Made by a program: the position numbers and the translations under genes
Virus record (IMG/VR): IMGVR_UViG_3300031673_000328
Coordinates: 1 to 30,705 of that record
Length of the DNA: 30,705 nt
From: a virus
Direction: 5' to 3' (one strand)
Shown here: positions 15,689 through 20,791 of the stretch, in pieces
Position numbering within the stretch: position 1 is the stretch's first letter
Layout: each line of letters opens with the position of its first letter
The notes under the pieces: generated by a model
What the model was told of the DNA's origin: nothing
The model's input: the letters and a program-made list of their open reading frames with translations, nothing else
Database searches by the model: none

Positions 15689-17149
15689 TTATTTGCCTAA
15701 GTTTTTAAACAAGCAGTTGAAGCGAGGAGCGTATACAAACAATGCACCGTAAAGAACAACAGCGAATTCAAGAGCAGTGCTCACGATTGCGAAGTTGATT
15801 TTAGAAAGAGGTGAAAGTTGTTTGAAGCGCATTACTTCTGAACTCATGTCAAGCAAGAATGCTTCACCAAGACCAGGAGCTTTCGCACCAGAATCAACGA
15901 TTGTAGCAGAAACTTTGTAGTTTCCAATGAACTTCTCAGTTCCTACAGCACCACCAGCAGCAGAGCGATATACTTTGATATGCTTTGTTCCAGCAGGAGT
16001 GTTTGCAAGAGCTAATGACATTGCTTGACCAGCAGTAACGGTCAAACCAGCACCAGAAGCTTGGATTGGAGAAGATTCGCCAGTATCGTTAACATAGCTA
16101 ACTTTTACTTGATAAGAACCAGCAGCTAAACCATCAGTAGAAGCCGAAGGGTTTGCAACCGCAGTTGCTACAGCAGCTGCTGCACCTACTACAGGAGATC
16201 CTTGGATTCCAGTGTTTCTAGCTTGACCACGAGGGCGCAAGAAAAGATTTGGTTTAAACTCAATGTTACCTGCAGATGTTACCATCTTGTTAACATCATA
16301 ACCAACGCTTTGACCTTGAAGACCAGGCGCAGATCTGAATTGCGGATAAAATTGTTTTACAAAAGAACTAAGAGCTAGAGGCTCAATGTGTAGATCAGTT
16401 GGAGCACCGAAGTTTTCCAAAGCGATCACAGTTAGATCTTCAAGGTCATCTTGAGCAAGAACAGCACCCTTAAGATCTGAAGCAATCGAGCGAACTTCGC
16501 CGTATCCTTCAAAGTCTCTAGACTTTTGTTGTGCATCATCGTCACCTTTGATAAGTTGTTGTAATAGACCGTTCATTGCAATGGAATTAGCAGGAAGATC
16601 AGAAAGACCACCTGATTGATCGCCAGTAGCAACGTTAGTAAAGTGGGCATGTCCCCAATACATTTCACGCTCAACGTTCTTCAAAAGGTGCATAGTACCT
16701 TCTTTAGCTTGTTGTGCAACGATATCGCCTACAGTTGTGCGAACAAGAGTCATTTGGTGCGATACTTTTCGACGAGTACCGAAGAAAACAATTCTTTGTC
16801 CGTCTCTGATATAAGTGCTATCTTCTTCTTGAGGAGCACCACCTTCACCAATATAAGGTGAAGAATCAGAACCGTAACCGATTAAACGGTTGTATTGTTC
16901 GAATAGGTTATAGGCTTTATCTACCGAAATAGAAGGCCACATTTTTAAATTCTTCATGTCAAAAGTGATTGACTTAAGTGTAGACTCAAGACTTTCAGCT
17001 TGTAACACACCGCCATAAGTAAGGTCGGTTGGTTTACCAGCGCCACCGTATCCGGCGGTAATGGCTTTATTCAAAGCCTGAACTTCTTCAGGAGACACAA
17101 TGCCCTGCTCCAGCCCTTGATTGATTTGGTTAACAGTTTCGTTTCTCAT
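15689..17149 (-). CDS. Major capsid protein (HK97-fold type) with inserted beta domain
   Basis: A 486-residue protein read as the main shell subunit. Residues ~45-110 (LQAESLESTLKSITFDMKNL, then NLFEQYNRLIGYG), ~115-165 (GTRRKVSHQMTLVRTT) and the end (AIVSTALEFAVVLYGALFVYAPRFN) are typical of large phage capsid proteins in this gene order. Residues ~28-56 contain KAITAGYGGAG and GGVLQAESLES, almost repeated in the protease/scaffold protein. An Ala/Gly-rich segment at ~315-340 opens a domain to ~425 (SYQVKVSYVNDTGESSP, HIKVYRS, YKVSATIVDSG) that looks Ig/Fn3-like and probably projects from the capsid. The ATG overlaps the scaffold stop (TAATG), and a UUCG terminator follows. The call rests on position between protease, scaffold and connector genes. 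Confidence 0.85.
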   Translation of the reverse strand: MRNETVNQINQGLEQGIVSPEEVQALNKAITAGYGGAGKPTDLTYGGVLQAESLESTLKSITFDMKNLKMWPSISVDKAYNLFEQYNRLIGYGSDSSPYIGEGGAPQEEDSTYIRDGQRIVFFGTRRKVSHQMTLVRTTVGDIVAQQAKEGTMHLLKNVEREMYWGHAHFTNVATGDQSGGLSDLPANSIAMNGLLQQLIKGDDDAQQKSRDFEGYGEVRSIASDLKGAVLAQDDLEDLTVIALENFGAPTDLHIEPLALSSFVKQFYPQFRSAPGLQGQSVGYDVNKMVTSAGNIEFKPNLFLRPRGQARNTGIQGSPVVGAAAAVATAVANPSASTDGLAAGSYQVKVSYVNDTGESSPIQASGAGLTVTAGQAMSLALANTPAGTKHIKVYRSAAGGAVGTEKFIGNYKVSATIVDSGAKAPGLGEAFLLDMSSEVMRFKQLSPLSKINFAIVSTALEFAVVLYGALFVYAPRFNCLFKNLGK

Positions 17150-17934
17150 TATCTTACATCTCCTTTAGATTTGAGTCCGTATTTATTTGCAATTTCCATA
17201 ACAGTTGATGGATCATTAGACGTTTCTACAGTAAAAATATCTGCAGAATCTACTTGCTCACCTGATTTCTTAAGTTCGAACAATGTATTAGCTACATCAG
17301 CCTTATTAAGAGGTTCAACTTCATCAGTAGATTTTTGTAACGCAGTAATTCCAGCAGGAACACCTTTGCGTGCAGCAGGCTTATCAGCTAATGCTTCAAT
17401 TGCCTCTTGCATTTTAGCAAGTGTTTCTGAAAAAGAACTGAATTTTTCGTCCACATAAGATTTCATTAAAGTTTCAGAAGCTTCTAAAGATTTTTTCATC
17501 TCTTTGTCGTCTTTCTTATCTTTCTTGTCTTTCTTATCTTTGTCGTCTTCGTCTTCATCTTCATCGTCTGCTTTAGATACAGTTGGTGCTTGTGCGAATT
17601 TACCAGCGTCTTCGTCAGCTTTTTCGTTCTCACCCTTACTTACAGTAGGAGCTTGAGCAAATTTGCCAGCGTCTTCATCAGCTTTTTCGTTTTCGCCTTT
17701 ATCTATATCTTCTTTTTTCTTCTTTTTATCTTCGTCGTCTTCATCTTCGTCATCATCAGCTTTCTTAGCATCAAGTTCACCGTTTTTTGACTTTCCAGCC
17801 ATGCCAGCATCACTATCACCAAGAGATACTTCTGAAGCCGCAAATTTGGACTTCTTGATCTCTTCGATCTCTTCTAGGGTTTCGTCAATTAGAGAGGTCA
17901 GAGATTTTATCATTTCTTCATTTGTAATGTCCAT
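17149..17934 (-). CDS. Acidic scaffold-like head protein with internal tandem duplication
   Basis: A 261-residue, highly charged protein immediately upstream of the capsid gene, where a scaffold or assembly core protein is expected. Residues 1-30 are helical. Residues ~55-80 and ~120-150 are Asp/Glu/Lys-rich low-complexity segments. Between them lies a perfect tandem repeat of 21 residues (KGENEKADEDAG, then KFAQAPTVS, twice). Residues ~150-190 form a coiled coil (MKSYVDEKFSSFSETLAKMQEAIEAL). The C-terminal ~50 residues are more ordered (VANTLFELKKSGE, STVMEIANKYGLKSKGDVR), as in scaffold C-termini that bind capsid protein. AAAGGAG precedes the ATG. Cleavage by the phage protease is plausible but unproven. 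Confidence 0.65.
   Translation of the reverse strand: MDITNEEMIKSLTSLIDETLEEIEEIKKSKFAASEVSLGDSDAGMAGKSKNGELDAKKADDDEDEDDEDKKKKKEDIDKGENEKADEDAGKFAQAPTVSKGENEKADEDAGKFAQAPTVSKADDEDEDEDDKDKKDKKDKKDDKEMKKSLEASETLMKSYVDEKFSSFSETLAKMQEAIEALADKPAARKGVPAGITALQKSTDEVEPLNKADVANTLFELKKSGEQVDSADIFTVETSNDPSTVMEIANKYGLKSKGDVR
17575..17700 (-). repeat. 63-nt tandem repeat, identical in protein, diverged in DNA
   Basis: Two adjacent 63-nt units (17638-17700, then 17575-17637 in reading order) encode the same 21 residues, yet 10 of 21 codons differ, every one synonymously. The duplication is therefore not recent, and selection has kept the peptide unchanged. Confidence 0.85.
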
Positions 17935-18391: not shown

Positions 18392-18736
18392 TTACTTACC
18401 CAGCTTAAGTCTCCAAGTTGTAGCATCCGATACAACTGAAGGATTGATTCTTCTATAGTTACCAAGGTGACCGACTAGTAAATGACAGTTAATACCGTAC
18501 TTTTTACTTTCACATAGACTCATTAGGTTATTTGAATCCAACTCTAGATCTGGAGCTAGATTATAAGGAATAATATGGTGTACTTCTACAGATTTAGAGG
18601 AATCACAGATAAAACACCTAGGATTCTTTTCTAGGTGAGCTAATCGAATTTTACGCCAACTAGTGTTGCGTTTATCGCCTGGCTCTGCTTTACCTGTTAT
18701 TCTATCTCTAAGATACTGGAAGAAATCTAAAATCAT
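18392..18736 (-). CDS. HNH endonuclease
   Basis: A 114-residue protein with a clear HNH fold. Residues ~40-100 hold CFIC (first zinc pair), then VEVHHIIPY with the catalytic His, then LDSNNLMSLCESKKYGINCHLLVGH with Asn, the second Cys pair and the final His. A short basic N-terminal region (WRKIRLAHLEKNP) may bind DNA. Single HNH proteins in phages are either homing endonucleases or packaging-linked nucleases that act with terminase. Here the gene is coupled to the protease gene (TAATG overlap) rather than inserted between operons, which slightly favours a phage function over a homing element. That choice cannot be settled from sequence. Confidence 0.85.
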   Translation of the reverse strand: MILDFFQYLRDRITGKAEPGDKRNTSWRKIRLAHLEKNPRCFICDSSKSVEVHHIIPYNLAPDLELDSNNLMSLCESKKYGINCHLLVGHLGNYRRINPSVVSDATTWRLKLGK

Positions 18737-20136
18737 TATAGGTATTTATCAAGTTTGCTTAGGGAAAAATTCTTGCCACATTCTCGGCATTTAACCTGAT
18801 GCTTCATATAGACCTGCTCGTGGCCACAATCATCACAAGATATATAGTTCATACCAGTCATGTCGTTTTTGGATGTTCTACCATCATCTAGTGATTCCGA
18901 TTGAATCACGCCTCCGCCAGTGTTATCCATTGGGGATCCAGCTCCACCATATCCAGCAGTTAAAGCTTTAATAAGACTATCTTTTATTGATTTATTCATG
19001 CTTTCTTTGATCTTTTGAACAGCTGCTGCAGCTTTTTCTGGACCATGAGATACCGAAAGTTGACTATATATATTGTTTAAATGTGCTGGGTCTTTGGCAG
19101 CTTTCATAGCGTGCCTACCGATAACAACGTTGGCTTTCTGTTGAACTCCAGATATAGGTTTATTAACGTCTTGATTTAGGACAGGGGAAGGTTTTGTTGT
19201 ATTAGATGTACTAGTATCAGCAGCTCGCTCTTTCATTCTATTCATTTCTCTATTATTTGTTATTTGTGCTTTTTGTTTAGTTGACACTGCTTCGTCAGTT
19301 TTAACTTGAAAAGCACTGGGTGTCACGTCATCTATGATGTCTGGAGCATGTACCGAGCGTGGTGTATTTATAGCTTTAACTAGACCACTTATCTTCTCTA
19401 TATTACTAGATATCTTATGCATTACGGCCTGCTTCATTATAGCTTCGGGAGTAGATTCTTTAACTTCTATATCAACACCTATATGTTTGGCTAGTTCTTG
19501 TATTTTCTGAATATTCTCGTATATTGTATTGGCAGATGCATGTCTCTCAATGTGCCTAAAAGAAGGAATATTGGTTTGAGCTAGATGCATTACTGACTTG
19601 ATTAGTTGCTTATCTGCTTCCCAGTCATTATTTGACTTATCTAAGTTGAGTGGTTCAACTAGAGTAGCATTATTTGCTGGTGTGAATGTCAGCGCGACGG
19701 AGTGTATTTTGGTTCTTGCTAAACGAGTTTGATCCTTTATGCCCCGAGCAACAACTCCACCCTCGACAGAGGCTTTCATTGCTAGAGGAGCGTCTTCTCT
19801 GTGGATATTTCGCATGATGGCAGCAGCCGCTTTGGCATTAGGGTGATCTTCATCGTTATATAGTTTACCACGTACATAGATATATGGAGCTTTTATCTTT
19901 TCCCAGTAGTATTTCTGTCGGTCTGTTTCACAGTCTTCGGCTTTGAAGATCTTCTTGGCCTCTGTGATTCGCCCTACAGAATTGAAAAATCCTTTTCCGT
20001 GATTGTCGTTGAAACGACCTCGGCCGGCTTCTAGATCAGAAATATCTGCACCCTCAACGCTTAGAGTCTCACCTTGAGTATCTTTAAGCTCAGAACCTGC
20101 GCACATATCTATTTCTAGTGATTTATTTTTAGCCAT
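18736..20136 (-). CDS. Prohead protease fused to scaffold-like region and zinc ribbon
   Basis: A 466-residue protein. Residues 1-165 resemble the T4 gp21/HK97 family of head-maturation serine proteases: His46 in N-D-N-H-G, Ser123 in K-A-S-V-E-G-G, and a closing strand SVALTFTPANNA. The active-site assignment is by pattern. Residues ~170-385 are helical and hydrophilic, like an attached scaffold. Residues ~390-416 (KALTAGYGGAG, then GGVIQSESL) nearly repeat the N-terminus of the major capsid protein. Residues 431-456 form a zinc ribbon with Cys434, Cys437, Cys450 and Cys453. Protease-scaffold fusions are known in phages; the zinc ribbon end is less usual. The start codon lies inside the leader hairpin at 20132-20151. 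Confidence 0.75.
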   Translation of the reverse strand: MAKNKSLEIDMCAGSELKDTQGETLSVEGADISDLEAGRGRFNDNHGKGFFNSVGRITEAKKIFKAEDCETDRQKYYWEKIKAPYIYVRGKLYNDEDHPNAKAAAAIMRNIHREDAPLAMKASVEGGVVARGIKDQTRLARTKIHSVALTFTPANNATLVEPLNLDKSNNDWEADKQLIKSVMHLAQTNIPSFRHIERHASANTIYENIQKIQELAKHIGVDIEVKESTPEAIMKQAVMHKISSNIEKISGLVKAINTPRSVHAPDIIDDVTPSAFQVKTDEAVSTKQKAQITNNREMNRMKERAADTSTSNTTKPSPVLNQDVNKPISGVQQKANVVIGRHAMKAAKDPAHLNNIYSQLSVSHGPEKAAAAVQKIKESMNKSIKDSLIKALTAGYGGAGSPMDNTGGGVIQSESLDDGRTSKNDMTGMNYISCDDCGHEQVYMKHQVKCRECGKNFSLSKLDKYL

Positions 20137-20174: not shown

Positions 20175-20501
20175 TTATACTTTAAAGGAAGATCCACAAC
20201 TACAGGTCTGAGTTGCATTGGGGTTGATAAATTTGAAGCCAGAACCGTTCAAACCACCCTCGTAATCAAGAGTCATGCCTATAAGGTATAGATAGCTCTT
20301 ATTATCAATTATTACTTTTACATTGTCTGCTTCGAGAACTTTGTCATTTTCGTTGGTCTGATCTGTGAAGTCCATTTTATAGTTGAAGCCAGAGCATCCA
20401 CCTACATTAATAGCTATACGTAACATGTATTCAGAGGAAAGATTTTCCTCTTCCCGTGATTTTACTATCTGCTTTAATGCGTTTTCAGTTACATTTATCA
20501 T
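20175..20501 (-). CDS. A-type Fe-S carrier (IscA/ErpA/HesB family)
   Basis: A 108-residue protein with all hallmarks of the family: MINVTENALKQI start, GGCSGFNY with Cys36, and a C-terminal TCSCGSSF with Cys100 and Cys102. These three Cys and the length match bacterial IscA/ErpA almost position for position. Such proteins carry iron or an Fe-S cluster to apoenzymes in the cytoplasm. I chose the ATG at 20501 because it overlaps the upstream TGA and begins the domain; a longer reading from 20558 adds 19 unrelated residues. HesB/IscA-like genes are known as host-derived auxiliary genes in some marine phages. Nearby phage proteins with Cys clusters are possible recipients. Confidence 0.9.
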   Translation of the reverse strand: MINVTENALKQIVKSREEENLSSEYMLRIAINVGGCSGFNYKMDFTDQTNENDKVLEADNVKVIIDNKSYLYLIGMTLDYEGGLNGSGFKFINPNATQTCSCGSSFKV

Positions 20502-20791
20502 CTTGGCCTGCCTACTATTTTCAATAAGCATCGTTTGTTGAAAATAATAGATGTACAAGGATACAATGTAAGTCCTTTAGTTAGAATAGTGTGATCATCC
20601 ATGTGTTGTGTACCGATATAAATATTTCTATTGCTATTATTTTGAATATAAACTTCATCATTGAATTTCATAGCCACAACTGAACATGGGTCAAAATCAT
20701 TAGATGATACAAATAGAGGTTCAAAATGTTGATCAACTGGATACCCTAATCGACTAAGTGTATTTAATAAATTTAAAGTTACCTCAATCAT
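20498..20791 (-). CDS. Hypothetical small protein
   Basis: A 97-residue protein that I do not recognise. It has a helical start (VTLNLLNTLSRLGYPVD) followed by short strands (DFDPCSVVAMKFNDEVYIQNNSNRNIYIGTQHM, then LTLYPCTSIIF). Three Cys are present but spaced widely. It overlaps both neighbours by 4 nt (ATGA), so it is translated with the Fe-S carrier gene downstream. A link to that carrier is possible from coupling alone. Confidence 0.55.
   Translation of the reverse strand: MIEVTLNLLNTLSRLGYPVDQHFEPLFVSSNDFDPCSVVAMKFNDEVYIQNNSNRNIYIGTQHMDDHTILTKGLTLYPCTSIIFNKRCLLKIVGRPR

Follow-up and report, generated by a model that had tools for sequence, protein, structure and literature searches.

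The major capsid protein (MCP) and the head maturation protease of the phage analysed here carry copies of one 29-residue peptide, which is confined to these two proteins. The two copies co-vary among phages and, as judged from their sequences, are either homologous or held alike at the protein level. We see slightly better than an even chance that the protease tail mimics the MCP N-arm and docks the protease in the procapsid, with self-cleavage freeing it. The features concerned, listed below, lie on the minus strand of the window, by which we mean the whole 30,705-nucleotide stretch of IMG/VR record IMGVR_UViG_3300031673_000328 that was analysed; a slash marks a scissile bond.

15689..17149 (-): MCP gene, 486 aa, SPO1 type (phrog_752, 9vel)
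16982-17068 (-): shared peptide, MCP copy, residues 28-56, reading KAITAGYGGAGKPTDLTYGGVLQAESLES
17066..17149 (-): MCP residues 1-28, predicted propeptide, removed at K28/A29 (aligned with A511 and 9row)
Between codons 17066-17068 and 17063-17065 (-): K28/A29 bond, as predicted for the window phage
17149..17934 (-): scaffold-like ORF, 261 aa, K/D/E-rich (position and composition like SPO1 gp3.3)
18736..20136 (-): head maturation protease gene, 466 aa (phrog_1028, Herelleviridae profile)
18739..18855 (-): four-cysteine zinc-ribbon-like C-terminal domain of the protease, about residues 428-466 (conserved Cys)
18883-18969 (-): shared peptide, protease copy, residues 390-418, reading KALTAGYGGAGSPMDNTGGGVIQSESLDD
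18970..19386 (-): protease linker without invariant residues, about residues 251-389 (alignment of 18 relatives)
19387..20136 (-): protease catalytic part with H46 and S123, about residues 1-250 (alignment of 18 relatives)

The original prediction had placed the same peptide at capsid residues ~28-56 and protease residues ~390-418, and this is confirmed: the copies are identical at 20 of 29 residues, 54 of 87 bases and nine codons, and BLASTP of the two proteins aligns them with E=2e-9. BLASTP finds no other meaningful match between MCP and protease outside the peptide, so that the description of the proteins as otherwise unrelated also holds, and there is no third copy in the window. Comparison of the MCP and protease family profiles gives E=1.5e-12 across 36 columns, and the whole-protein MCP-versus-protease score exceeds the best of 200 shuffles in 19 of 21 lineages, the window included, with Mec66 and LfeInf failing to do so. 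A chance likeness of the two copies is ruled out by these BLASTP, profile and shuffle scores.

The window MCP belongs to the SPO1-type MCPs (phrog_752), matching the phrog_752 major head protein at E=1.8e-60 and SPO1 Gp6.1 (9vel) at E=5.6e-64, and 9vel is also its best fold match (9vel_D, Z 16.8). The AlphaFold model of this protein is poor (mean pLDDT 57) and uninformative for the N-arm. The window protease matches the phrog_1028 head maturation protease (E=1.7e-8), and its catalytic part matches Herelleviridae proteases in hhalign (E=6.6e-12); H46 and S123, the latter in the motif S-V-E-G, are invariant in 18 relatives and align with H63 and S119 of SPO1 gp3.2. Catalytic-domain homology and the conserved His and Ser thus identify it as a caudoviral prohead serine protease. 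PF04586 matches the SPO1 and A511 proteases and was not reported in a Pfam scan of the window protease. The nearest folds of the catalytic part are herpesvirus proteases, a weak match. The linker that follows, ~140 residues in the window and up to several hundred in relatives, is of low confidence or helical in AlphaFold. In the peptide itself K390, A391, A394, G395, G397, G408, V410, Q412 and E414 are invariant among the 18 relatives. In the terminal domain C434, C437, C450 and C453 are invariant in the same set, pLDDT is about 80, and there is weak similarity to the S27e and Rpb12 ribbons. At residues 388-427, covering the peptide, the model has pLDDT <50, and the peptide is predicted to be unfolded in the free protease, flanked by the variable linker and the small folded domain.

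The protease had also been described as the scaffold, which the gene layout contradicts: a separate K/D/E-rich scaffold-like ORF (17149-17934) lies between the protease and MCP genes. This ORF contains an exact tandem repeat of KGENEKADEDAGKFAQAPTVSK, with two copies in a row. An HNH endonuclease ORF (18392-18736, minus strand) sits in the head operon, its start codon overlapping the last base of the protease gene, and a Fe-S_biosyn gene encoding an IscA/ErpA-like A-type carrier (20175-20558, minus strand; PF01521, E=3.3e-20) lies directly upstream of the protease gene.

In relatives, the start of the peptide coincides with the bond that is cut in capsid maturation. The A511 Cps record has its mat_peptide beginning at S24 after K23 (propeptide 1-23), which is exactly the peptide start, and PDB chain 9row_B, a Kayvirus MCP, begins at the same place with the aligned serine. 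In 9vel_B, the best-resolved SPO1 capsid chain, 445 residues are modelled, equal to 468 minus the 23 before the bond, and this number is consistent with, and not proof of, a cut at the peptide start. The K28/A29 site is conserved in the window MCP, before an [AT]G[YH] block, and by alignment with A511 and 9row it is the predicted maturation site of the window phage. K390/A391 of the window protease is a predicted self-cleavage bond and fits the MCP site; the corresponding predicted cuts are after K169, before SLEAGYE, in SPO1 gp3.2 and after K170, before SWTTGHG, in the A511 protease. With modelled MCP chains of 434-445 residues, the shared peptide falls within the part that is retained in the mature shell.

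Both copies are widespread. They are present in 93 of 93 IMG/VR loci in which both regions are readable (61 distinct pairs), and 14 relatives of 108-177 kb have exactly two copies per genome, one in the MCP and one in the protease. In five loci (L028, L042, L044, L048 and L063) the protease and MCP genes lie on opposite strands, with both copies present, and in L042 and L048 the protease gene runs past the ribbon. All 17 Herelleviridae sampled (SPO1, Ex132, LysYB1, Goe26, ADU4, A511, K, EF24C, a Twort-like phage, AGATE, BSP38, SIOphi, Goe8, Troll, Bromius, Lbab1 and LfeInf) have both copies, as do three unrelated phages, Morganella Mec66, Pseudomonas Touem01 and Myxococcus Mx1. When the SPO1 protease is compared with all PDB sequences, its sole match is SPO1's own MCP (E=2.4e-6), through the peptide, and the A511 protease matches the Kayvirus MCP from the first residue of the mature chain onwards. 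Herelleviridae protease and MCP profiles match at E=7e-14 in the peptide region only, and a single A511 protease peptide used as query finds 1124 places in 572 phage records, or about two per record. Sequence searches of solved capsid structures found MCP chains only and no protease tail fragment.

The protease copy is not universal, being missing in some phages and reduced in protease-scaffold fusions. Bacteroides phage DAC16 and Chryseobacterium phage MA9V-3 either lack it or have it in unrecognisable form, and single-sequence scans for relatives of the MA9V-3 protease-scaffold and of the DAC16 MCP found none. Among the Bacteroidota-type relatives (L138-L217) found for the MCP, most have protease and scaffold fused, and many retain between them a short peptide reduced to its ends, K[AS]x.[AT] and L.KE[SD][LV]. 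The idea suggested by MA9V-3, that the peptide is lost upon protease-scaffold fusion, was dropped because many fused relatives keep this shortened form.

The original prediction proposed asking whether the two copies change together in related phages, and they do. Among 12 deep lineages, treated as exchangeable and with core positions anchored by hand (full-length alignment recovers the same stretch), the peptide score is 87.6 for a genome's own pair versus 43.9 for other pairs (p=2e-5). Control segment pairs (29 residues upstream, 29 residues downstream, one stretch of the catalytic part and one of the MCP body) yield p=0.22-0.78, with the upstream control, the residues before the K, at p=0.50 and with no shared likeness. 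An old duplication followed by drift would predict that a protease copy is no closer to its own MCP than to others, the opposite of what is observed; for the window, ADU4, LysYB1, Mx1 and SPO1, the likeness between the two copies of one genome exceeds that between orthologues of either type from different lineages. Individual columns illustrate this. The column after the hydrophobic residue (Q, R or K) is Q in both copies of the window phage and Mx1 and R in both copies of nearly all Herelleviridae, and two places on, in a column of E or Q, ADU4, Mec66 and Touem01 have each replaced E by Q in both copies. Within the window clade the MCP copy is nearly invariant, and the co-variation is therefore visible between clades rather than within.

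Our preferred reading of this pattern, on which we infer docking to the shell, self-cleavage and the fate of the tail, is as follows. During procapsid assembly the protease peptide would take a shell site of the same kind as receives the MCP N-arm, and the protease would hang inside the procapsid at the place of the MCP propeptide. Upon activation the protease would cut the MCP at K28/A29, itself at K390/A391 and the scaffold at its many K-S sites. The cut at K390/A391 would release the protease, as the cut at K28/A29 would release the MCP propeptide, and the 76-residue tail (the peptide and the small domain) would be left on the inner shell or escape. A head-assembly docking motif was among the functions first suggested for the peptide, and it gives the best fit to the whole stretch, the co-variation and the predicted unfolded state, with the binding itself presumed. 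Whether this is also a general loading route in SPO1-type phages, with the protease posing as a capsid subunit by means of a co-evolving copy of the N-arm and the same scissile bond, we regard as an even question. If docking is correct, shell maturation and enzyme release would share one cleavage chemistry, and the virion may retain the tail domain. Proteases of this family have been detected in purified virions of CKA15 (at 29.5% coverage; PMC12282133) and Bc431v3.

The main rival to docking, which we consider rather unlikely, is that the peptide is an extended substrate. Both copies would bind an exosite on the protease, with the MCP copy the preferred substrate and the protease copy either an autocleavage site or a pseudo-substrate that holds the enzyme inactive until assembly. 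The peptide begins exactly at the scissile lysine, as an extended substrate might, and co-variation is expected here too, such that the same data would fit a model in which the peptides bind the protease and not the shell; the SPN3US protease, moreover, is known to cleave itself at a C-terminal propeptide. However, the conservation is almost wholly on the primed side and reaches about 25-26 residues past the bond, the residues before the K are not shared (the control at p=0.50), scaffold K-S sites lack the peptide, and in the structural model the tail has no confident structure and is not placed within the catalytic domain.

A shared cleavage site had likewise been suggested, and for the first bond this stands, since the MCP is matured at K/[SA] in A511 and, from 9row_B, in Kayvirus. 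That the likeness is nothing other than a protease recognition sequence is very improbable, because the stretch exceeds the length of such a sequence and lies on the side of the bond where it would not be expected. The scaffolds are informative here. The scaffold-like ORF of the window has eight K-S dipeptides versus 3.4 expected and no copy of the peptide, and the scaffolds of 21 phages together have 171 versus 63 expected (2.7-fold enriched), again with no peptide found; K-S is not enriched in mature MCP bodies (22 versus 29 expected). This enrichment is as expected if K/S were the cleavage code for scaffold removal, and since it occurs in scaffolds free of the peptide, such a code would work without it, and cleavage alone leaves ~25 conserved downstream residues unexplained. 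The downstream part is also kept where the lysine is missing or shifted: AGY...GG.ALR.[EQ]S is retained in the protease copies of LfeInf, Bromius and Mec66, which have no lysine directly before it, and in Lbab1 the K-S is positioned further upstream in both copies.

It is very improbable that the peptide serves some other partner common to MCP and protease, such as the scaffold, a chaperone or the portal. Any common partner would yield the same co-variation, and some relatives fuse protease and scaffold with the shortened peptide between them, but in the MCP the peptide belongs to the portion that the mature shell keeps (the 434-445 modelled residues). Least probable is exchange of DNA between the two genes, by gene conversion or recent duplication, a trace of which had also been proposed: the copies look paralogous and track each other, and an ancient partial duplication could be their origin, but the flanks are without likeness and codon identity at identical residues is 37% in 61 window-clade pairs, against a codon-usage expectation of 41%, and 43% in 20 deep lineages, against one of 45.5%. 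Synonymous codons are thus no closer than codon usage predicts among close and deep relatives alike, which argues that DNA exchange is not the cause; selection acting on the protein is, as read from these sequence comparisons, what keeps the copies alike.

The nearest precedent that we see for the window protease tail, by analogy, is SPN3US gp245, which removes from itself a C-terminal propeptide of 64 residues; this segment has been proposed to direct the enzyme to the prohead (PMC7411985, PMC10052503). That tail, of the SPN3US/phiKZ type, is of similar size (64 residues versus 76 in the window protease) and is self-cleaved, whereas self-cleavage of the window protease is predicted; no likeness to the MCP is reported for it in the accessible text of these papers, whereas the window tail opens with a co-varying copy of the MCP N-arm. 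In T4 a short peptide, the capsid targeting sequence, is responsible for the entry of proteins into the prohead and has a prohead-protease site at its end (PMC5694885). The window peptide is not a sequence of this type, being C-terminal and behind the predicted cut; the T4 sequence is N-terminal, removed and core-binding, whereas the window peptide matches the N-arm that is retained. The herpesvirus UL26 protease-scaffold has a protease domain, a linker and an MCP-binding C-terminal segment, with a cut near the C-terminus at the M site (PMC12474303). It resembles the window protease in this layout, and herpesvirus proteases are, weakly, the nearest folds of the window catalytic part, but its tail is no copy of an MCP segment and its scaffold is within the same protein. 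The gp3.2 proteases of Herelleviridae (SPO1, A511 and K; Peptidase_S78) share the catalytic family by profile, the gene order and the peptide; they differ in having a tail after the peptide that looks helical by sequence, in contrast to the zinc ribbon of the window clade, whose linker is also longer.

That prohead proteases can have targeting tails and cleave themselves is already known. In the openly accessible literature we found no earlier report of a peptide shared by MCP and protease, or of a protease tail that duplicates the MCP N-arm and varies with it from phage to phage. To our knowledge, how proteases enter the procapsid and are restrained from cutting early is poorly known beyond a few models. 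The sequences name a 29-residue element, its likely partner and a scissile bond that are also found in the well-studied phages SPO1, A511 and K, and the question is therefore testable with mutants and peptides. A cut after lysine cannot be separated from a tryptic end by routine trypsin proteomics, and this resemblance may be the reason why processing of the protease went unnoticed. The peptide could also serve as a tag for loading foreign proteins into large T=16 heads.

We note finally that some proteases are much longer than that of the window. Four in the window clade (L026:3750-6560, L071:3198-6068, L011:3763-6747 and likewise one in L077) are 937-1010 aa and contain arrays of HEAT or LRV repeats (Pfam E to 1.5e-33), which sit between the catalytic part and the tail and, in L011, between the peptide and the ribbon; the Mx1 protease is 1239 aa. 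The repeat arrays are possibly cargo that is taken into the head.
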